Of a stretch of 64,000 nt of DNA, positions 12,344 through 52,987 are shown in pieces. Positions within the stretch are counted from its first letter, which is position 1; each line of letters opens with the position of its first letter. The DNA comes from Candidatus Saccharimonadota bacterium (GTDB lineage: Bacteria > Patescibacteriota > Saccharimonadia > Saccharimonadales > Saccharimonadaceae): assembly GCA_017962365.1 (NCBI GenBank), contig JAGCVL010000005.1, positions 1 through 64,000 on the forward strand. Direction: 5' to 3'. Position numbers and translations under genes: made by a program. The notes under the pieces are model-generated. The model was given only the letters and a program-made list of their open reading frames with translations, was not told the origin of the DNA and ran no database searches.

Positions 12344-13717
12344 ATGGGTAAAAAATATAATTTTGACTATTTAATTATTGGTAGTGGTCCAGCTGGTGGC
12401 ACCGCTGCCCGCCTCCTCGCCGCTAATAAAAAGCTCCGCATCGGGCTAGTAGAGGCTCAAGATTTTGGCGGCAGTAATCTCTGCACACGCGATATTCCAC
12501 ATCTCGTCAGCCAATCTTTCGCTCACGATTTTTACAATCTGAGCATCGCGCCTGAGATGAGTAACCAGACTCTACATTTTAATTTTCCCTCCATCGCCTC
12601 ACATCAAATTGCTATCACTACTCTACTTGGCGCTGGCGACACCACTAGGTACAAATCCCTTGGCATCACCTGCATTTCTGGCTATGCTCATTTCTTAGAT
12701 AGTCATACCATCGCTGTCGGAGACAATCAATACGCCGCCGAAAACTTCATCCTCGCCTCTGGCGCAAAGACTTCCACTGGCGATATCATCGGACTCGACT
12801 CCGTCAGATGTCTCACTCCAGACGAGGTGCCACGCTTACGTCGCCAACCTAAATTCGTTTTCATCATCGGTGGTGGTCCTACTGGTTGCGAAATCGCTGA
12901 ATATTTTGCCAAACTTGGCACTAAAGCCATTATCATGGAGCAAGCCTCCAGTCTACTTCCAAAAGAAGACCCCGAAGCTGGCAATACCTTACGTGACTAT
13001 TTTACAAATGAACTCGGCGTCATGGTCGTCACCGATTCCAAAGTTGTCGCCCTCGAAAAAGATGGCACCGCAAAACGCGTCATTTTTAAATCTGGTTCCG
13101 AAGACAAAGTCGTACGCGTAGATTGCGTGGTATTAGCCACTGGCTCCACGCCATGCACCGACTATGGCCTAGAAAACGCTGGTGTACACCTTAACAAAAA
13201 TGGCGGCATCATGGCCAATAAATTCTTCCAGACTACCACCAAAAACATCTACGCCATAGGTGACTGCCTCGGCGGCAATCATTCTTCTACCGAACGCGCC
13301 GAATATGAGGCTTCAATCCTAGCCGACAATATTCTCCACCGTTCCAAAGGCTTTGCTGATTACAAAGGTTTCATTCGCTTCATCAATACTTGTCCCAGTG
13401 TCGCCTGCGTCGGCTCCACCGAAGCTCGTTTAAAACGCCACCGCGCCAAGTACAAAACTTCCATCGTTTATTTGAGAAATCTCCCTGCCGCCATTGTTGA
13501 CGGCTTAGACTGCGGATTTGTCAAAATCATCGCTAGCCCACGCACTGGTCATATTCTTGGTGCCACCATCGTCGCACCGCACGCCGAGCTCATGGCTACA
13601 GAACTTAGCCTCGCCATTCGCCATCGTTCTACGATTTTAGAACTTGCTAGCACCCCATACATGACCAATTCATATAGTTACGCCATCAAACTCGCCACTA
13701 GACAGCTTATTAAATAG
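12344..13717 (+). CDS. FAD/NAD(P) oxidoreductase of the disulfide-reductase family lacking the redox disulfide
   Basis: 457 residues. FAD-binding GxGxxG is at residues ~12-17 (IIGSGPAGGTAA), the NAD(P)-binding GGGPTGCEIAEYF near 178-190, and the second FAD motif is YAIGDCLGG near 300; the C-terminal dimerisation domain is present. The active-site segment reads GGSNLCTRDIPH where lipoamide dehydrogenase and mercuric reductase have GGTCLNxGCIPS. Both catalytic Cys positions are replaced (Asn and Asp), and one Cys sits two positions later. It therefore cannot be a normal disulfide reductase. The catalytic His-Glu pair near the C-terminus is also not conserved. Follows the 79-aa gene in the same operon. 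Confidence 0.85.
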   Translation: MGKKYNFDYLIIGSGPAGGTAARLLAANKKLRIGLVEAQDFGGSNLCTRDIPHLVSQSFAHDFYNLSIAPEMSNQTLHFNFPSIASHQIAITTLLGAGDTTRYKSLGITCISGYAHFLDSHTIAVGDNQYAAENFILASGAKTSTGDIIGLDSVRCLTPDEVPRLRRQPKFVFIIGGGPTGCEIAEYFAKLGTKAIIMEQASSLLPKEDPEAGNTLRDYFTNELGVMVVTDSKVVALEKDGTAKRVIFKSGSEDKVVRVDCVVLATGSTPCTDYGLENAGVHLNKNGGIMANKFFQTTTKNIYAIGDCLGGNHSSTERAEYEASILADNILHRSKGFADYKGFIRFINTCPSVACVGSTEARLKRHRAKYKTSIVYLRNLPAAIVDGLDCGFVKIIASPRTGHILGATIVAPHAELMATELSLAIRHRSTILELASTPYMTNSYSYAIKLATRQLIK

Positions 13718-13792: not shown

Positions 13793-13869
13793 TGGTGGCG
13801 GGGGTTCGATTTGAACGAACGACCTTTTGGTTATGAGCCAAACGAGCTACCAGGCTGCTCTACCCCGCG
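13793..13869 (-). tRNA. Initiator tRNA-fMet(CAU), atypical stem
   Basis: Anticodon loop CTCATAA (CAT), D-arm AGCAGCCTGGTAGCTCG as in bacterial initiators, T-arm GTTCG-TTCAAAT-CGAAC, CCA encoded. Position 1-72 is a C-C mismatch (E. coli has C-A), still unpaired as formylation needs. The anticodon stem is TTTGG/CCAAA, so only two G-C pairs lie next to the loop instead of the usual three. A small hairpin CTGAAA-AATA-TTTCAG follows the CCA. Confidence 0.9.
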
Positions 13870-17042: not shown

Positions 17043-17063
17043 TGGTCGGGGTACTTGGATTCG
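17043..17063 (-). repeat. Partial copy of tRNA-Ile 3' end (T-loop to CCA)
   Basis: 21 bases identical to 17119-17139, the last 21 bases of tRNA-Ile including CCA, beginning at the CGA of the T-loop exactly as in the tRNA-Gly case. 55 bp separate it from the tRNA. The upstream sequence no longer forms a T-stem. Confidence 0.85.
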
Positions 17064-17118: not shown

Positions 17119-17195
17119 TGGTCGGGGTACTTGGATTCGAACCAAGGACACTGCGTGTATAAGACGCATGCTCTAACCAACTGAGCTATACCCCG
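17119..17195 (-). tRNA. tRNA-Ile(UAU)
   Basis: Acceptor CGGGGTA/TACCCCG, anticodon stem TGCGT/ACGCA, loop CTTATAC giving anticodon TAT, T-arm CTTGG-TTCGAAT-CCAAG, discriminator A, CCA encoded. A UAU anticodon reads AUA directly. Most bacteria instead use a CAU tRNA modified to lysidine by TilS, so this gene suggests a TilS-independent way of reading AUA. Confidence 0.9.
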
Positions 17196-17214: not shown

Positions 17215-17418
17215 TTATTTCTTTTTAAGAGTCAAGAAACCGTTGCGTGGGTTCTCACAAACCATGCGGTCTGCTGGCAAATCACATGGAGTGCCCTTGC
17301 CACCCTTTTCGTCCTTAGTAAAGAAATAAATTGTCTGCGGCTTGCCACCACGAAGAGTCACCTCGGATTTGTGCAGATAGTACTTTACACCCTTAGCGTT
17401 AGTATGTTCGTAAGCCAT
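17215..17418 (-). CDS. Conserved small protein of unknown function
   Basis: 67 residues, basic, soluble. It has a strong ribosome binding site (AAGGAGGAGC) about nine bases before the ATG. The sequence (HTNAKGVKYYLHKSEVTLRGG, then QTIYFFTKDEKGGKG, CDLPADRMVCENPRNGF) has two Cys and a beta-rich look. I recall similar short proteins in Saccharibacteria genomes but know of no function. Single gene between two tRNA-dense stretches. Confidence 0.75.
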   Translation of the reverse strand: MAYEHTNAKGVKYYLHKSEVTLRGGKPQTIYFFTKDEKGGKGTPCDLPADRMVCENPRNGFLTLKKK

Positions 17419-17498: not shown

Positions 17499-18233
17499 TT
17501 ATATAAAGATTATCGCAATCCTAAGTACTAGCCAATAAATTATTCTTATCAAAATTACCACTATCAGTATTAATGTTAAAAGTATCATCCACCCGGCAAG
17601 CGTCGGCGCCCATACTGGTGAAGCGTAATTTTTCCGATAAAGCTCCGTTGACGGCAACCTTGCTATAATTTTATCTGAAAGTTCATCCGATGCCGGATAT
17701 TTTGCAATTTCCGTCATCATGCAATTAATATATTCCGGCGAGCTCCAGTTCCATCCATGGCTAATCGCCTCCGCCCGGCAATACTCACCAGCAGCCGCAT
17801 AAATATTACCATGTGGATTCTTATCATCCACTTGCATCTTTTCGGCCTCCGCTAGCGCCTTAGTCGCCGCCCGCAAATATTGATGCTCAAGATAAAATGG
17901 CCCCGTACCAAAATCTACTCGCTGCGTACCATTTTCTTCCACTACATTTACTACGATGTGCGAAAAAACAAATTCTTTAAGTTTAGTTAAAGCTGCCGCA
18001 AGCTCTGCATCCGATTCCATCGCTGCTTCATCGCTCTCATCATTTGATATTTTGGCATCCACTGCAAGCACCTCATCTCTTAGCTCCGTCATTTTGATGT
18101 GATCTAACCGAAGTAGCGTTGCATCAATCGGTAACAATATTATTAAAGCAACAAGCAGCATCCATGTCTTCACATGTACGCGCCACTTTCTCTTCCGAAT
18201 AATTTCTCGGATTTTGCCACCCATTTTTGCCAT
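17499..18233 (-). CDS. Membrane protein with two helices and an exported domain
   Basis: 244 residues: a basic N-terminus, TM1 at about 25-45 (WMLLVALIILLPIDATLL), a ~150-residue external domain of acidic helices containing two Cys (GEYCRAE, YINCMMTE), and a C-terminal TM hairpin (WMILLTLILIVVILIRIIYWLVLRIAIIF). Function not recognised. Promoter-like TGATATAAT lies nine bases before the ATG. Transcribed divergently from the FtsB-like gene at 18284. Confidence 0.7.
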   Translation of the reverse strand: MAKMGGKIREIIRKRKWRVHVKTWMLLVALIILLPIDATLLRLDHIKMTELRDEVLAVDAKISNDESDEAAMESDAELAAALTKLKEFVFSHIVVNVVEENGTQRVDFGTGPFYLEHQYLRAATKALAEAEKMQVDDKNPHGNIYAAAGEYCRAEAISHGWNWSSPEYINCMMTEIAKYPASDELSDKIIARLPSTELYRKNYASPVWAPTLAGWMILLTLILIVVILIRIIYWLVLRIAIIFI

Positions 18234-18283
18234 ATAATATATATTATATCAAATCACAAGCTTTTTTGTAGTATAATTAGGCC

Positions 18284-18703
18284 ATGAACGGCCTAAGGAG
18301 CAAACTGCGTCGCCTAAATTACAAATTAAAACACGATCTTTCAATTGAAAATATCGTGCTTGTTGTTGCTGTCATTATGTGTCTTACTTGGACCTACCAG
18401 TCCATTACCGCAATGTCTCGCAACTGGACTCTCACCGATCGTCTCGCCACGGCCAATCGCGAGCTCGCCCTCCTCGACCTAGAAGTTGAAACCATGGAAC
18501 TTGAAAACGATTATTATGCCTCCGACGAATATCAAGAACTCCTCGCTAGAAAGCATGCCAGCAAGCAATTACCTGGAGAACACCTAGTCTACCTCCCAGA
18601 AAATTCTAACGCCGCTAAAAACAAACACGCAGTTGTCGCATCCACCAAAGAGCAACCAGAATACTCCAATTTTAGCAAATGGATGCGATTTCTTTTTCCG
18701 TAA
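18284..18703 (+). CDS. FtsB/DivIC-like septum protein
   Basis: 139 residues: short basic cytoplasmic part, one TM helix (~25-42, IVLVVAVIMCLTWTYQSI), then a coiled coil (TDRLATANRELALLDLEVETMELEND) and a YYASDEYQELLARK segment that resembles the end of DivIC/FtsB coiled coils. Such proteins link FtsL/FtsQ to the divisome. A TATAAT at 18272-18277 lies six bases from the ATG. Family assignment rests on architecture and the coiled coil only. Confidence 0.65.
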   Translation: MNGLRSKLRRLNYKLKHDLSIENIVLVVAVIMCLTWTYQSITAMSRNWTLTDRLATANRELALLDLEVETMELENDYYASDEYQELLARKHASKQLPGEHLVYLPENSNAAKNKHAVVASTKEQPEYSNFSKWMRFLFP

Positions 18704-24409: not shown

Positions 24410-25111
24410 TTATTCTGCATTTGTATAGACATTAGTCACATCATCGAGGTCATCGACGGCGCTCAATAATTTTTCTAGCTTCTCCGCGTTTTCACCTTCC
24501 ACCGGTACATACGACGACGGCACATACTGAAGTTCTGCGCTCGTCACCGTCATACCAGCATCTACCAAAGCCTGCCTTACCTTCATGAGGTCCGAAGCTG
24601 CCGTATATATAATAGTACCATCATCTTCATCCGACACATCTTCCGCCCCAGCATCTAGCGCCGCCATCATCGCATCATCACCTTTTTCAGAAATTTCAAT
24701 CACGCCCTTTCGTGCAAACTGGAACATCACCGAACCCGGCTCCGCCATCCGTCCACCAGACTTATCTAAAGTATGCCTCACTTCCGGCATTGTCCGATTC
24801 TTATTATCCGTCGCCACCTCAATAATAATCCCTACCCCACCAGGACCATACGCCTCATAAACTTCCTCAATCAACGCCGCCGCCAACTTGTCAGCCACTC
24901 GCGCGATCGCCCGCTCAATATTCGCTTTTGGCATATTTGCAAGCCGCGCTTTTTCAAGCACCATCGCGAGCGATGGATTCATCGCCGGGTCAACGCCAGC
25001 TCTCGCCGCAATCGCGATTTGGTTTCCAATCTTCGTAAAAAGCGCCCCTCGCTTCGCGTCCACTACGGCCTTCTGCCGTTTCGTTGTCGCCCATTTACTA
25101 TGTCCAGACAT
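24410..25111 (-). CDS. YebC/PmpR-family regulatory or translation factor
   Basis: 233 residues with the family start MSGHSKWATTKRQKAVVDAKRG, the NIERAIARV segment and the VYEAYGPGGVGIIIEVATDN block. YebC proteins bind DNA in some bacteria, and YebC-type factors also help ribosomes through proline stretches. It is downstream of comEC with 18 bp between, so probably co-transcribed with it. Confidence 0.93.
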   Translation of the reverse strand: MSGHSKWATTKRQKAVVDAKRGALFTKIGNQIAIAARAGVDPAMNPSLAMVLEKARLANMPKANIERAIARVADKLAAALIEEVYEAYGPGGVGIIIEVATDNKNRTMPEVRHTLDKSGGRMAEPGSVMFQFARKGVIEISEKGDDAMMAALDAGAEDVSDEDDGTIIYTAASDLMKVRQALVDAGMTVTSAELQYVPSSYVPVEGENAEKLEKLLSAVDDLDDVTNVYTNAE

Positions 25112-25129: not shown

Positions 25130-26641
25130 TTAATTACTTATCTTAATTTTACCACTTTTTGCCCTCTTTGTCCACTCTGCTTCTCGCAATATAGCTACCG
25201 TCAAAATCCCCGCCACCACCACATAAATCCCAAACACCCACATTTGATACGGCTCAATCGTCACTAAAAATTGTCTCATCTGCCCAAAAAATTCCACCAC
25301 CAAAATGTGAAAATTGAGTACCGTTCGCGCCATCCATCCCGCCACAAATTCCACCAAAGGCACCCCAACTACTACCCCAGTAAGAAACGTCATTCCCATC
25401 GCAAATGGCAACGTTGGCAAAATCAAAAGATTTGCCACCACCGAAATTAGCGACATTTGCCCATAATAATACAGTACTATCGGCAACGTCATTATCGTCG
25501 CACTCACCGTCGTCAGTATCGTACTGCTCAAAAATCCTGGCTTCCGGTTCCCATAGAAAAATTTTGTCAGCCTCGGCCCCACCACCATAATCCCGGCATA
25601 TGATGCAAACGACAACATCCAACCCATATTCATCACAAACATCGGGTTTATGAGTAACGTTCCAGCCGCCACTAGCAAAATCATTCGCCATGGTTGCATT
25701 TTTCGCCCCACATACCACGACACTAAAGTCAAAATCGCCATCACTCCCGCCCGAAAAATTGACGGTGTCCACCCAACCAGCGCCATAAACATCACAATAA
25801 AAATCACTGAAAATAGTAGCCCCGCAAATCGCGAGATTCTTCCAAACAATTTTTTCGCCACTTCCACCAAAATCGCCAAATGCGCCCCGCTCGCCACCAC
25901 GATATGCGTAAGTCCCACCGTCCTTAGATTTTCCTCCAAACCTTCCGGAAGTCCAGTCTTCATGCCCATCAGATATGACAGCCCGAGTTTAGACTCAGCC
26001 TCACCGTCCACTGATCGCTCAATCCTCTCCGCAAACCAATCTCTCAGCTTCAAAATCCACGACCCCGGCTCCGGTCGCGCCCACCATACTACCCGCGGTT
26101 TATACATATAGCCCACATACGTCCCAAACCCCTCGCTCATTTCGCCATCAAGCATCACGGTGTCTCCCCACCTAATTTTTTCATTTCTGCTAAGCGTCAC
26201 ACACACATTCCCTCTCGTCACAAAACATTCATCATCATTTTCCGCCACCGTTTTACCGCATTCTTCACCAAACCTTAGATTCGTCAACTTTATCTTCGTC
26301 TGCGATTCGTCAATTTCTGGATCTCCACTCACCTCACCCACCATCATCACCCTCGTTCCATAAAATTGTCGTATAAAATTTTCGCCCGTAAGTTCCTCCG
26401 TCACTCTCACAAAACTCATCAAAAAACCCGCTAGCACCGCCAAAACACTGCAAAGCAACAGAGGTCGCACTAAACAAATTATAAACAAAAACCCGCTGAG
26501 CATAGCAAACCACCCCGATGCAAAATAATTTATCCGAAACGCAATACCGAGCACAATCCCAGCCACCACCCCCACGGCAAACCACACCACGAACCATGAT
26601 TGATGAATCTTTTTGAGCCAAAAAACTCCAATTTTTTGCAT
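25130..26641 (-). CDS. comEC: ComEC/Rec2 DNA-uptake channel, short form
   Basis: 503 residues with about ten hydrophobic segments. The N-terminal DUF4131/OB-like part carries GTRVMMVGEVSGDPE and LDGEMSEGFGTY. The Competence domain follows (LSYLMGMKTGLPEGLEENLRTVGLTHIVVASGAHLAILV; this GLxHLLAVSGxH-like motif is diagnostic). The C-terminal metallo-beta-lactamase nuclease domain of full ComEC is absent. It carries single-stranded DNA across the inner membrane during transformation. The start follows AGAAGAAGG. Confidence 0.88.
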   Translation of the reverse strand: MQKIGVFWLKKIHQSWFVVWFAVGVVAGIVLGIAFRINYFASGWFAMLSGFLFIICLVRPLLLCSVLAVLAGFLMSFVRVTEELTGENFIRQFYGTRVMMVGEVSGDPEIDESQTKIKLTNLRFGEECGKTVAENDDECFVTRGNVCVTLSRNEKIRWGDTVMLDGEMSEGFGTYVGYMYKPRVVWWARPEPGSWILKLRDWFAERIERSVDGEAESKLGLSYLMGMKTGLPEGLEENLRTVGLTHIVVASGAHLAILVEVAKKLFGRISRFAGLLFSVIFIVMFMALVGWTPSIFRAGVMAILTLVSWYVGRKMQPWRMILLVAAGTLLINPMFVMNMGWMLSFASYAGIMVVGPRLTKFFYGNRKPGFLSSTILTTVSATIMTLPIVLYYYGQMSLISVVANLLILPTLPFAMGMTFLTGVVVGVPLVEFVAGWMARTVLNFHILVVEFFGQMRQFLVTIEPYQMWVFGIYVVVAGILTVAILREAEWTKRAKSGKIKISN

Positions 26642-26922: not shown

Positions 26923-26999
26923 GGTACCGTAGCTCAGATGGTTAGAGCGTGGGACTCATAAGCCCAAGGTCACTGGTTCGATCCCAGTCGGTACTACCA
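26923..26999 (+). tRNA. tRNA-Met(CAU), elongator
   Basis: Acceptor GGTACCG/CGGTACT, anticodon loop CTCATAA giving CAT, T-arm ACTGG-TTCGATC-CCAGT, CCA encoded. The initiator is at 13793-13869, and Ile AUA is served by the UAU tRNA, so this is read as elongator Met, not lysidine-modified Ile. It has its own TGATATAAT promoter (TATAAT 26908-26913). A broken second 3' half follows it. Confidence 0.85.
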
Positions 27000-46234: not shown

Positions 46235-46633
46235 CCATAATATGCTAAGGCAATGATCTAAAATCGCGTTGAATAACACGTCAATGCGGCTAAAAGTAAT
46301 ATCACCCTACGACGGGTTTAATATTCTCTCCATATGGCGAGGGGCGACCAGACGTTGTTGCTCGGCTTTGCATGGTGGTGGACTGGTGTATTGACCACCC
46401 CGAATACACGGCGAAGATCAAGGTTATACCTAAGAAGGACTACCCAGTGTTGATGCCGTGCGAGTTCTGAGGTATACATATACAGGCAAAGAGATTCGAA
46501 CTTTTAATGATTCATAGCTTTACTGGAACCGTAGAGGATTAAAACAGTGACAATGAAGAAAATAAAAGAAATACAATGTCAATGTTAAAATTAACCACAG
46601 TACTTTATGCAACTGATGATATAATAGAAGAAT
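46232..46633. other. Intergenic left boundary of the accessory island
   Basis: 402 bp without a full gene. It contains copy 1 of the 164-bp repeat (46343-46506) with a 32-codon frame, and the TATAAT (46620-46625) of the nuclease gene. No integrase, and no copy of the tRNA-Lys 3' end, was found here. Confidence 0.6.
46343..46506 (+). repeat. 164-bp direct repeat, copy 1 (with 32-aa frame 46372-46470)
   Basis: Matches 48704-48867 over its whole length without gaps. It is a mosaic: 59 bp identical (from gtggactggtg), about 22 bp with only third-position-like changes, then 48 bp identical running past the stop codon (to actttta). A frame MVVDWCIDHPEYTAKIKV, ending DYPVLMPCEF, is kept in both copies with almost only synonymous differences, so it is or was coding. 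The frame continues upstream of the ATG to a stop at 46297, perhaps as the end of a once larger gene. Confidence 0.9.
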
Positions 46634-48634: not shown

Positions 48635-48979
48635 ACCCCCACACGGTGCAATCTTGAAAGAAAAGATTAGCATTTTGAGTAACAAATTCTTATAAAAGTG
48701 AGTGGCGACCAGACATACTTATTCGGTTATGTATGGTTGTGGACTGGTGTATTGACCACCCCGAATACACGGCGAAGATCAAGGTTATACCTAAGAAAGA
48801 CTATCCTATTCTGATGCCATGCGAGTTCTGAGGTATACATATACAGGCAAAGAGATTCGAACTTTTAGAAAGACGTAGAGTTAGGACATGTCGTAATAAA
48901 TTTATACGCAACCACACTTGATGCGTGTGTTTACATATAGTATACTTGTATAGACATAACGCAAAAGGAGGCCATAAAA
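48635..48979. other. Spacer with repeat copy 2 and promoter of the NTPase gene
   Basis: 345 bp without a full gene. It holds copy 2 of the 164-bp repeat (48704-48867), then a promoter TTGATG (48918-48923)-17 bp-TATACT (48941-48946) and an AAAGGAGG ribosome binding site for the 1335-aa gene. Confidence 0.65.
48704..48867 (+). repeat. 164-bp direct repeat, copy 2 (with 32-aa frame 48733-48831)
   Basis: Second copy of 46343-46506. The 32-codon frame ends DYPILMPCEF instead of DYPVLMPCEF; most other changes are silent (for example CGG CTT TGC to CGG TTA TGT). The 48 bp around and after the stop are identical. Together the copies bracket 2.2 kb with the nuclease gene and the retron. Confidence 0.9.
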
Positions 48980-51900
48980 ATGACCGCTGATATTAACAAA
49001 ATTATCAATGAGTGGTCTTCTCATTCAAAATTAAATACATATTCTGAGCTGGGTAGAAGAGTCGGTGTTTCTCAACAAACCGTGAGTAGATGGGCGCATG
49101 GGATAAACAAGCCATCTCCGAAATACAATGATCGTATTATTAATGCCATATCATCAGATTATTCTACGCATAATCCAGATATTCCCTTTGGACTATCTGC
49201 GCTTTGTCCATTACCGCTAGAAAAGCTAACACCAGGAGATTTTGAGGAATTCTGCCTAGACCTTTTTAGGTATACTGGACTCGACGATATAGACAAACTC
49301 GGAAAAACTGGAGACAAACAATATGGAATTGATTTGTATTCAAACGATCAGAAAACCGTCATACAATGCAAACAAACTAGAGAGATAAAGTTCAATAAAA
49401 CAAATGACGTCATAAATGACTATGAAGAGAGCAAACTAGAACAGCGGTTAGGATATACACCGCAGAGAAAAATCCTAGCAGTTTCTGCAAGCGTCACAGA
49501 TCGAAACGCCCAAAAGCTTGAAAATAGTGGTTGGAAAGTATATGACATCGAAAAACTTAGTCGAGTCGCAAGAAACCTACAAGAAAATCAAAAAATAAGA
49601 CTAGCTGAAACGTATTTTCCAAAAAATCGGCAATCTGTCTTGAAAAATTGCCTCAGCGTAAATGACTATACGTTCGGTCTAACTATTGCCAAATCGTATT
49701 TTGATCACATCGATAAGCCGCAGAATTGCTTTACGTTGTCAAACCAATATATCCTCAGTTTTTCAAAGCTTGAAACGTTAAGCAAATATTTTCAAGAATA
49801 TCATGATGCAACAACTTCTTCTCTACCTATAATTGTTATTACTAGCGATAACGGTGTCGGAAAAACACGACTACTTAAAGAATTCTGCGATAAATATGAC
49901 AACCTGAGTATTGTTGTGGTCGAAGAAAACATCGAAACGAAAGACGACATAGCTTGCGCCTTTGAGAGCGACGCAATTATTATTGACGACGGACAAAAAT
50001 ACAAAAATACCATACATCATCTACTCTCAGCATATGCCGCATCATACGCAGAAAAAACCACAAAAAAGAATAAACCAGTACTCATTATTTCTGTGAGCTC
50101 GGCGTATCTTGACCAAATAGAGGGAATTCTATATGAAAATAGAATACAAGAGGACGACTATCGTACTATCAAGTTGGAAAAACCTACGTGTGGTCAATGT
50201 TATGAACTAGTTATGGGGATCATCAAAAATGGAAGCATCGCTCAAACCATAACTAACTTTTCGAGCAATAATCCTTTCATTGCTGCAACTTTAGCAACTG
50301 CCATCCGCAACGGTCAGCTGTCTCAATTAAGTATTCAAAAGCTCGGTGCGCCGGGCAGTATTTTGCATGCTTCACTAAACAATCTAGCTAAGTACAGATG
50401 TGGATTATCCCGCCAAGAGAATGACGTAAGGTCTATCCTAGATATGATTGCATTAGTACAACCGGTTAGTATAGACGAAGACCTAATTGACGTTATAAAA
50501 GACCAAACGAATCTTTCATCTTCCGACATCAATACTATTATCGAAAAATTGCTTACAGCGGGTATACTAATTAAACGAAAAAACAAAATACATATATACC
50601 CAGATATTTTAGGAGTTTATATTTGTCATGAATATCTTAAAAGCGGTTTTGAATCAAAAAAAACTATCCTTAGAACACTACTTAATGGCAAATACCAAAT
50701 TAATACTCTTCTGAACTTAGCGTTACTCGATACAGATGAGGTAACCATAGTCAGTAATGTCATGCCTGAAGCGTGGCGGACTATAAAAACAAACTATATG
50801 AATAGTAGTATTATTGAACAGCAAAGAGTCCTAAATAGTCTAGTAAACATCTCCTTCTATCAACCGCGCGAAGCAATTGATTTCGTGAAAATGGTATTAT
50901 CCCTAAATGATAGTTTAGAGATAAAAACTCCAATCGAAGATTTTAACAGCTCTCTTCGTACGATAGCTTCCATCTTAGAAAATATTGCGCATAGGATGGA
51001 GTATACGGATGAAGCTATTTGTATTCTTGTTGAATTGGCTGGTAAATTCAAAGCGGAAGAGCCGAGAAATAACCCAGCTCTGAATGTCATCCAGAGCTTG
51101 TTGCGCCCAAATATATCAAAACCAATCGGATACAGAAAAAGAGTACTAGAAAGCTTATTGTCATATATTAAAAAAGATTCAAGACAAAAAATGTTTTTAA
51201 AACTGCTAAGTAGCCCTCTCGATATAAGCAGCACATCATATCTGTCAGACAATAAAACTATCACACTGCTACAATCAAGCCACGACAACACCGATACTGA
51301 ATCTAGAGAAATCTGCGAAACTATTTTGGAATATTCCCAGGCTATTATCGATAGCAATGATCTTCCATTGACAATAGCCGCCATTGAACTACTTGGGAAT
51401 ATTATTAACTATAAACTTACCCAAGATGGCAATTTAGAAATCAGGAATAAAATTATTGATTATCTTTACAATTTATGCGACAAGAACACCGACCCAGTAA
51501 TTGTAGCTAAAATATACTTAGAGCTCCAAAGATGTTATAAGAACACACGTCGGTTAGACCTATTGATAAAAAGCAGCGACACTATAATAGCTGTTTTTAC
51601 CCTGGATCCATATCATCATAACTTACTCTCATACGAAACGGACTATAAGAAGAGGCAGCTCAAGCTCAAAAAATGGGTCGAGCACAATGCAGAGCTCGTA
51701 ATAAAAGAATATGGCGCCAACCCCAGCGCGCTATATAATTCGCTTAGGACAATTCGAGAAAAAGCAAACGAATGCAAACTAATATTTAACTCGTCATATT
51801 TGCTTGGAATGATTTGTCCAAAAATGACAAATGACTTTAATAAGCAAATTCTACAGGCTATCGAAGTTGACAATCCTGGAGAAGAGTTCCAGTATGCAAT

Positions 51901-52987
51901 AGCCGCATTATTAGCCTCCAACAAAGAAAAACAATACTGCATAAATACGATAAAAACTCTTATAAATTCTGATAACTATAAATCAACCATTGCAGCCGCA
52001 AACACAGTAGCGTATTGTTTTGATAAGATAGACATAAAAACATCCCTAGAATTAATTAACTTAATAGTAGAAACAAACAACATAGACGCTATTCTGATCT
52101 TGATTCAGTATTCTTGCCGACTACTCGATTATGATGAGACCGTTATCGGTGATCTATTGCTATATTTCTGCAAGATAAAAGACTCGAAAATTGCATTAGC
52201 TATAACGGATCTTTTTTCTGGACAAAACGGAGAACACCTTATAGGAAAGCTCCGGCCAAAACATGTCAAAACTATACTCTCCATGTTAGAGAGAGCTCAA
52301 GAGCTAAACTATTCGGCACAACAATTTATACGCAATATTGCAAACATTTTCCCTGATGACACCGCCGCTTTTCTCCTTAATAGAGTCTACGACAAACACA
52401 CCATGACAGAACGTGATCTGTTTAGCTATACGGATATACCTTATGGAATGACAATCGATCTCGAAAAAGATGCTCTAAATATCTTTCTTGCCAAAATTAT
52501 ATCGCGGATTTACGACAATATTGACCAGCCCATGGTGGAATACAATGCCAGAAAAATATTAAAAATCATCTGCTTAGACGAAAGGGAAATTTTAAAAGAA
52601 GTAATTAAAACCAAAGACAAGTTTATTGAAAACAAAGACAACACACTATGTATGGTAATAGAGATACTTCTATCTTCATTAGATATTCGCTTTATAGCCA
52701 ATAATTATGACGGAATTGAGCCGATCTTGCGCTCATTAATGATAGATGGCGGCGTGAGTAAGAAAAAAATATTAGAAATTTTTATTGCTAGCTATGTGCC
52801 CTCATCTAAGTCTAGAACGCCTGGTAGTCCATCCGAATATGATTTACAGCTAATAGATATTTCTGAAAAAGCGCTTCTGATAATGCCATATGACTCTATC
52901 TTAAGGCAACTTTTTGAAAGAGTAAAAGCGTATGCAGAACAGGAAATATCAAATGACAAAATTATAGACGAAGAGTGGGGTCTATAA
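48980..52987 (+). CDS. HTH / Mrr-like nuclease / P-loop NTPase / alpha-solenoid protein
   Basis: 1335 residues. Residues ~18-45 form a helix-turn-helix (YSELGRRVGVSQQTVSRWAHG). About 78-200 is an Mrr-type PD-(D/E)xK nuclease: LTPGDFEEFCLDLFRYTGL, then GIDLYSNDQKTVIQCKQ with Asp and QxK. A P-loop GVGKTRL lies near residue 292 and a Walker-B-like AIIIDDGQ near 332, followed by a STAND-like NTPase and roughly 800 residues of helical repeats. The layout (effector nuclease, STAND switch, repeat sensor) is that of Avs-type and related anti-phage proteins. It would cut DNA after sensing a phage product (inference). AT-rich codons fit horizontal acquisition. Confidence 0.8.
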   Translation: MTADINKIINEWSSHSKLNTYSELGRRVGVSQQTVSRWAHGINKPSPKYNDRIINAISSDYSTHNPDIPFGLSALCPLPLEKLTPGDFEEFCLDLFRYTGLDDIDKLGKTGDKQYGIDLYSNDQKTVIQCKQTREIKFNKTNDVINDYEESKLEQRLGYTPQRKILAVSASVTDRNAQKLENSGWKVYDIEKLSRVARNLQENQKIRLAETYFPKNRQSVLKNCLSVNDYTFGLTIAKSYFDHIDKPQNCFTLSNQYILSFSKLETLSKYFQEYHDATTSSLPIIVITSDNGVGKTRLLKEFCDKYDNLSIVVVEENIETKDDIACAFESDAIIIDDGQKYKNTIHHLLSAYAASYAEKTTKKNKPVLIISVSSAYLDQIEGILYENRIQEDDYRTIKLEKPTCGQCYELVMGIIKNGSIAQTITNFSSNNPFIAATLATAIRNGQLSQLSIQKLGAPGSILHASLNNLAKYRCGLSRQENDVRSILDMIALVQPVSIDEDLIDVIKDQTNLSSSDINTIIEKLLTAGILIKRKNKIHIYPDILGVYICHEYLKSGFESKKTILRTLLNGKYQINTLLNLALLDTDEVTIVSNVMPEAWRTIKTNYMNSSIIEQQRVLNSLVNISFYQPREAIDFVKMVLSLNDSLEIKTPIEDFNSSLRTIASILENIAHRMEYTDEAICILVELAGKFKAEEPRNNPALNVIQSLLRPNISKPIGYRKRVLESLLSYIKKDSRQKMFLKLLSSPLDISSTSYLSDNKTITLLQSSHDNTDTESREICETILEYSQAIIDSNDLPLTIAAIELLGNIINYKLTQDGNLEIRNKIIDYLYNLCDKNTDPVIVAKIYLELQRCYKNTRRLDLLIKSSDTIIAVFTLDPYHHNLLSYETDYKKRQLKLKKWVEHNAELVIKEYGANPSALYNSLRTIREKANECKLIFNSSYLLGMICPKMTNDFNKQILQAIEVDNPGEEFQYAIAALLASNKEKQYCINTIKTLINSDNYKSTIAAANTVAYCFDKIDIKTSLELINLIVETNNIDAILILIQYSCRLLDYDETVIGDLLLYFCKIKDSKIALAITDLFSGQNGEHLIGKLRPKHVKTILSMLERAQELNYSAQQFIRNIANIFPDDTAAFLLNRVYDKHTMTERDLFSYTDIPYGMTIDLEKDALNIFLAKIISRIYDNIDQPMVEYNARKILKIICLDEREILKEVIKTKDKFIENKDNTLCMVIEILLSSLDIRFIANNYDGIEPILRSLMIDGGVSKKKILEIFIASYVPSSKSRTPGSPSEYDLQLIDISEKALLIMPYDSILRQLFERVKAYAEQEISNDKIIDEEWGL

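Follow-up and report, generated by a model that had tools for sequence, protein, structure and literature searches.

A tRNA-Ile(UAU) in place of the lysidine-dependent tRNA-Ile2(CAU) in a Saccharimonadota genome, and a type II IleRS residue associated with it

E. coli and B. subtilis cannot do without TilS, the enzyme of the standard lysidine system for reading AUA, and a 2024 paper describes lysidine as the means by which almost all bacterial tRNA-Ile read this codon (PMC11938285). Decoding of AUA by a tRNA-Ile with anticodon UAU is known from Mycoplasma mobile and has been predicted in hemoplasmas (PMC4014445), and 19 species were counted in 2014 (PMC4013482). We discuss here a UAU gene in a Candidatus Saccharimonadota bacterium, a very small parasite, within a stretch of 64,000 nucleotides that we refer to as the window. 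The genome that carries it (G000) is a draft of 625 kb in 6 contigs, 96.5% complete, and the match of its UAU tRNA suggests that the genus is Candidatus Nanosyncoccus (Saccharibacteria), which NCBI places in class Nanosyncoccalia of the phylum Saccharimonadota.

The features of the window that enter the discussion are as follows; G109, G157 and G287 are genus mates of G000, and G179, G190 and G371 are relatives with a tRNA-Ile2(CAU).

12344-13717: oxidoreductase; homologue near Ile2(CAU) in G179
13793-13869 (-): initiator tRNA-Met (CAU); also a neighbour of the UAU or Ile2 locus in G157, G109, G287, G371 and G179
17119-17195 (-): tRNA-Ile, anticodon UAU, predicted to read AUA, with encoded CCA
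17215-17418 (-): small conserved protein of 67 aa with no Pfam match, adjoining the UAU tRNA; homologue near Ile2(CAU) in G179 and G190
17499-18233 (-): conserved ORF flanking the tRNA locus; homologue near Ile2(CAU) in G179 and G190
18281-18703 (+): conserved ORF; adjoins Ile2(CAU) in G371, G179 and G190, and the UAU gene in G157
24410-25111 (-): yebC/TACO1; left flank of the sister-genus tilS cluster
25130-26641 (-): comEC; right flank of the sister-genus tilS cluster, here directly beside yebC
26923-26999 (+): elongator tRNA-Met (CAU), the only other CAU tRNA and not Ile2; near tRNA-Ser(UGA)

The preliminary description of this DNA had proposed the tRNA-Ile(UAU) gene at 17119-17195, and it stands. 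ARAGORN calls a tRNA-Ile with anticodon TAT on the reverse strand at exactly these coordinates, the Rfam tRNA model RF00005 matches it over its full length (69.7 bits, E 3.9e-13), and direct reading of the bases gives an intact cloverleaf with a 7-bp acceptor stem, discriminator A73 and the encoded CCA. The anticodon loop is C32 U33 U34 A35 U36 A37 C38. The closest genus mate, G287, has an identical 77-nt gene, and the counterparts in G109 and G157 are 89-93% identical with the anticodon unchanged. The anticodon-arm pattern matched 76 stretches in named genomes, 73 of which re-fold as UAU tRNAs; the titles are Saccharibacteria or Candidatus Nanosyncoccus alces in 75 cases and an uncultured bacterium in one, and many are from the ruminant gut. 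Given the identical gene in G287, the same anticodon in two other genus mates and the 73 re-folding stretches, sequence comparison indicates that the gene is a product of neither chance nor decay.

The 3' end of the tRNA is repeated exactly over 21 bp at 17043-17063 (-), about 55 bp downstream of the gene, and the identical tRNA in G287 has no such copy. In appearance the copy is a scar resembling an attachment site, or else what is left of a partial duplication after decay. A phage origin for the UAU tRNA was rejected, as there was only generic tRNA similarity of 77-80%.

With regard to the rest of the AUA-decoding system, the preliminary description had taken the UAU gene to imply lysidine-free decoding, a claim that a complete tilS and a tRNA-Ile2(CAU) elsewhere in the genome would have overturned. 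A genome-wide search of G000 with the TIGR02432 profile, which matched in 14 of 14 control genomes, found no tilS, and nor did the same search of G109, G157 and G287, which are 99-100% complete. There are 45 tRNAs in G000, with GAU and UAU as the Ile anticodons, and among them no third CAU tRNA was found that could be Ile2, only the initiator and one elongator Met. The tRNA at 13793-13869 shows initiator features, and that at 26923-26999 is assigned as the elongator because its sister-genome counterpart near tRNA-Ser(UGA) coexists with a separate Ile2. The claim is thereby supported. AUA accounts for 23% of the Ile codons in the window ORFs and for 327 of all 18,676 codons there (17.5 per 1000). 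Where UAU genomes have AUA in an alignment of 70 IleRS genes, the column is mostly one of Ile, Leu or Val, a pattern much like that of AUU and AUC, and AUG sits in Met columns, so that the genetic code is unchanged. A UAU gene, AUA read as Ile and the lack of both tilS and Ile2(CAU) are all as in the M. mobile type of lysidine independence, and G000 is not of the redundant Lactobacillus plantarum type, in which a UAU tRNA accompanies Ile2(CAU) and TilS.

Among the other tRNAs of G000, tRNA-Arg is GCG in place of ACG, so that inosine-34 is not needed; loss of the inosine-34 tRNA-Arg in this radiation is already known (PMC8629427). A tRNA-Leu(UAG) was not found in the tRNA set of this 6-contig draft and is perhaps in a gap.

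We extended the comparison to 380 genomes drawn evenly from the phylum, scoring TilS as present where TIGR02432 exceeded its curated cut-off of 93.6. TilS passed the cut-off in 96 genomes and a strict UAU tRNA-Ile pattern matched in 230, with no genome having both, so the two are mutually exclusive across 326 genomes. A second pattern, looser than the first, gave 9 clear UAU genes and 3 obvious chance matches among the 54 genomes with neither, for a UAU total of 239, and 45 genomes are left with neither recognised TilS nor recognised UAU tRNA; a still looser tRNA pattern allowing 2 mismatches was swamped by other tRNAs when applied to the 54. Introns or variation in loop length could hide further UAU genes among the 45, and for three of them (G005, G025 and G274) we predict UAU decoding from an IleRS without an aromatic residue at the site discussed below. 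A few UAU genomes (e.g. G061, G095 and G289) have weak TilS matches of 41-54 bits, well under the cut-off, which are most simply interpreted as paralogous ATP-binding enzymes. Within the family of the window all four members of its genus have UAU without TilS, and all 20 other genomes have TilS without UAU; G295 and G049 differ by another switch in the same class. The preliminary description had UAU decoding as known from a few bacteria, and while the precedents hold, the trait reaches well beyond them: no other AUA system was found as often in the 380-genome sample, and on gene content most of this candidate phylum appears to read AUA with a UAU tRNA.

As to the origin of the gene, the nearest relatives that are not themselves UAU tRNAs are the Ile2(CAU) genes of sister genera, at 84% identity (G179), rising to 87% for the commonest form in the genus. 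In G179 the neighbourhood of Ile2(CAU) contains the initiator tRNA-Met, and the genes at 12344, 17215, 17499 and 18281 have homologues there, some of which are also found in G371 and G190. Because the sister genera keep tilS and have tRNA-Ile2(CAU) at the corresponding locus, the UAU gene most likely arose at the Ile2 locus by a C34-to-U34 change, the direction from CAU to UAU being our inference. In the sister genus the gene order is yebC-recA-recX-ORF-tilS-APF-like-rsmA-metG-comEC. In the window and in G157 yebC and comEC are adjacent, and in G109 they are about 1 kb apart, with no tilS between them. A precise tilS deletion scar was considered and rejected, as metG (MetRS), a member of the sister-genus cluster, lies alone on another contig of G000; on that ground the cluster has been dispersed and tilS lost in the process, not cleanly excised.

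The orientation of the UAU tRNA relative to its neighbours is flipped between the genus and its relatives and the anticodon stem is rewritten, and for these reasons descent from Ile2, though the best reading, is not the only one. The same two differences would suit recruitment by an anticodon change in some other tRNA, such as a duplicate of Ile-GAU, that came to occupy the Ile2 locus, and there is a precedent in the bypass of tilS in B. subtilis by tRNA recruitment (Fabret 2011, cited in PMC8450103). We think this unlikely, as the acceptor stem is near-identical to that of G179 Ile2(CAU) and overall identity to the latter is 84-87%, against 78-81% to Ile-GAU (78% for the latter in G000, where it is the best match to the UAU tRNA), and the genomic locus is that of Ile2(CAU). 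It is far less probable still that assembly gaps conceal a tilS and a tRNA-Ile2(CAU), leaving the UAU gene as a redundant extra. The genome is an incomplete draft, and L. plantarum does have redundant tRNA-Ile of both kinds, CAU and UAU (Tomikawa 2018, cited in PMC9976931), but the three nearly complete genus mates also lack TilS, the two flanks of the tilS cluster abut in the window, and the combination of TilS over the cut-off and a UAU tRNA was seen in none of the 380 genomes.

In the case of IleRS the best structure matches of the G000 enzyme (L050:1066-4065) are of type II (Priestia IleRS2, yeast and Thermus), with the Anticodon_1 domain at 731-865, and by inspection a type II C-terminus is common to the enzymes of TilS and UAU genomes alike. 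The M. mobile UAU system reportedly has a type I IleRS with a change equivalent to W905-to-R in its zinc domain. The preliminary description had suggested looking for the IleRS substitution known from UAU-using bacteria, and that change could not be scored here, being inapplicable to a type II enzyme: the IleRS of the genus lack both a CxxC motif and the type I zinc motif. The trait is instead associated with another residue, the x of the motif RRSRRRF-x in the anticodon-binding domain, at position 781 in G000, where it is Ser. Of the 44 TilS genomes in a first set, 42 had Trp and 2 had Tyr at this site, and of the 21 UAU genomes only 2 had an aromatic residue. Since this set had suggested the residue, the clean test is the fresh set alone, for which the prediction was recorded before scoring: all 34 TilS genomes had Trp, as did 1 of the 45 UAU genomes that could be scored. 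Over both sets Trp or Tyr is present in 78/78 TilS genomes and a non-aromatic residue in 63/66 UAU genomes, the replacements being diverse (K, G, S, Q, A or a gap). UAU decoding does not strictly depend on the loss of Trp, which three UAU genomes (G020, G021 and G156) retain. The site is the best-associated column of the whole IleRS alignment (phi 0.93), followed by its neighbour (0.83). On an IleRS tree (FastTree, with the motif excluded and one short TilS sequence left out) the trait changes at least 17 times, a count that gene transfer could alter as the tree is of IleRS itself, and 12 of 14 independent pairs on supported branches are concordant and none discordant (p 0.0005). Outside the phylum the lysidine-using type II enzymes of Thermus and Priestia have Trp, and that of yeast, which uses UAU, has Lys.

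Two sister-genus TilS genomes, G354 and G379 (L188 and L189), are those with Tyr for Trp at this site, possibly an intermediate state, and their IleRS genes use AUA only once. The IleRS genes of the genus (L050 in G000; L172 and L173 in G157 and G287) are also lengthened by in-frame inserts of about 20-45 aa, such as EGDPQLSFAKMGEDKGRQDPSSG. G287 has two similar insert copies, and for one of the G157 inserts there is a DNA match of 86% at another place in G287 (L217). The inserts resemble dispersed repeats that have entered in frame, and recall the palindromic elements of Rickettsia. There are also repeats in the window: a 42-nt tandem repeat at its start (1-126), and a 168-nt direct repeat, 90% identical, at 46339-46506 and 48700-48867, which shortly precedes a 1335-aa protein at 48980-52987 with Mrr-type restriction endonuclease and HTH domains.

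The way in which AUG is avoided we can only infer. MnmG was not found in 76 of the 78 genomes tested, including every UAU genome tested, which makes the usual MnmEG-type side chains on U34 unlikely, and U34 is probably unmodified. In G000 both U34 and C34 tRNAs are present for Ala, both Arg, Gln, Glu, Gly, Leu-UUR, Lys, Pro, Ser, Thr and Val, and every A/G-ending codon pair with a U34 tRNA that was found also has a C34 tRNA, Ile(UAU)/Met(CAU) included. In most bacteria several split boxes have no C34 tRNA (PMC8007984). The pairing in G000 fits weak reading of G3 by U34, with AUG going to the C34 tRNA-Met by default. The M. mobile ribosome is reported to prefer AUA (PMC4014445).

The association at the IleRS site could have another meaning, in that the residue may mark phylogeny or relaxed constraint, with a Trp that contacts lysidine decaying after tilS is lost and having no part in the charging of U34. 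Both the Trp kept in three UAU genomes and the variety of the replacements would suit this, and we regard it as a real possibility without favouring it. Phylogeny alone is unlikely, as 12 of the 14 independent pairs agree and none disagree, and under relaxed constraint Trp would still be the lysidine-reading residue, the difference being only one of cause and consequence. More doubtful is the proposal that U34 is modified by another, perhaps Pus1-like, enzyme so as to exclude AUG: the AUA-reading tRNA-Ile of eukaryotes does have pseudouridine at 34 (PMC11938285), but the tRNA-Ile(UAU) of M. mobile is unmodified (PMC4013482), and MnmG is absent here.

The account that we prefer, and think very likely as a whole, is that the gene at 17119-17195 is the only AUA-reading tRNA of the cell, having descended in place from tRNA-Ile2(CAU) by a change of the wobble base from C34 to U34. 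TilS would then have become dispensable and its gene been lost. A type II IleRS without the conserved aromatic residue at the Trp781 position, which is Ser in the G000 enzyme, would charge the U34 tRNA directly. Free of MnmEG-type modification, U34 would form a Watson-Crick pair with A3, and AUG would stay Met through the weakness of U34-G3 pairing and competition from the two C34 tRNA-Met. The broader proposal, towards which we lean only slightly, is that UAU decoding prevails in the Patescibacteria through at least a dozen independent switches, and that one aromatic residue mainly sets the wobble-base specificity of type II IleRS, Trp for lysidine-34 and non-aromatic residues for U34.

In the sampled phylum the ratio of UAU to TilS genomes is over 2:1, and an enzyme that E. 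coli and B. subtilis need has been given up many times. The repeated switches and their close sister pairs, of which Nanosyncoccus and the neighbouring genus with TilS are one, form a natural experiment on separation of the Ile/Met codon box, and the IleRS residue offers a concrete single-site test for recognition of the wobble base. For annotation, a missing tilS in such genomes should be seen as biology and not as incompleteness. Our literature search found no report of lysidine or UAU decoding in CPR or Saccharibacteria, nor of the type II IleRS residue, which is not proof of novelty; UAU decoding has its precedent in M. mobile, and it is the phylum-wide scale and the IleRS marker that appear to be new.

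With regard to the known systems, the standard TilS/lysidine system is that of the sister genus and of the family's other members, and its tilS and Ile2(CAU) are absent in the genus of the window. L. plantarum is another bacterium with a UAU tRNA-Ile, but in the account given in PMC9976931 it keeps the CAU tRNA that is absent here. The type II IleRS that charges cytosolic tRNA-Ile(UAU) in eukaryotes likewise has no Trp at the site (Lys in yeast), but that tRNA has pseudouridine at 34, and an inosine-34 tRNA also reads AUA, whereas here AUU and AUC are read by Ile-GAU and there is no MnmG. The M. mobile system (Taniguchi 2013, as covered in PMC4013482 and PMC4014445) shares the loss of tilS, a UAU tRNA derived by C34-to-U change, an adapted IleRS and the lack of a CAU Ile2. 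The differences are that the IleRS here is of type II with the associated residue in the helical anticodon-binding domain, and that the trait is in a different phylum and much more widely spread.
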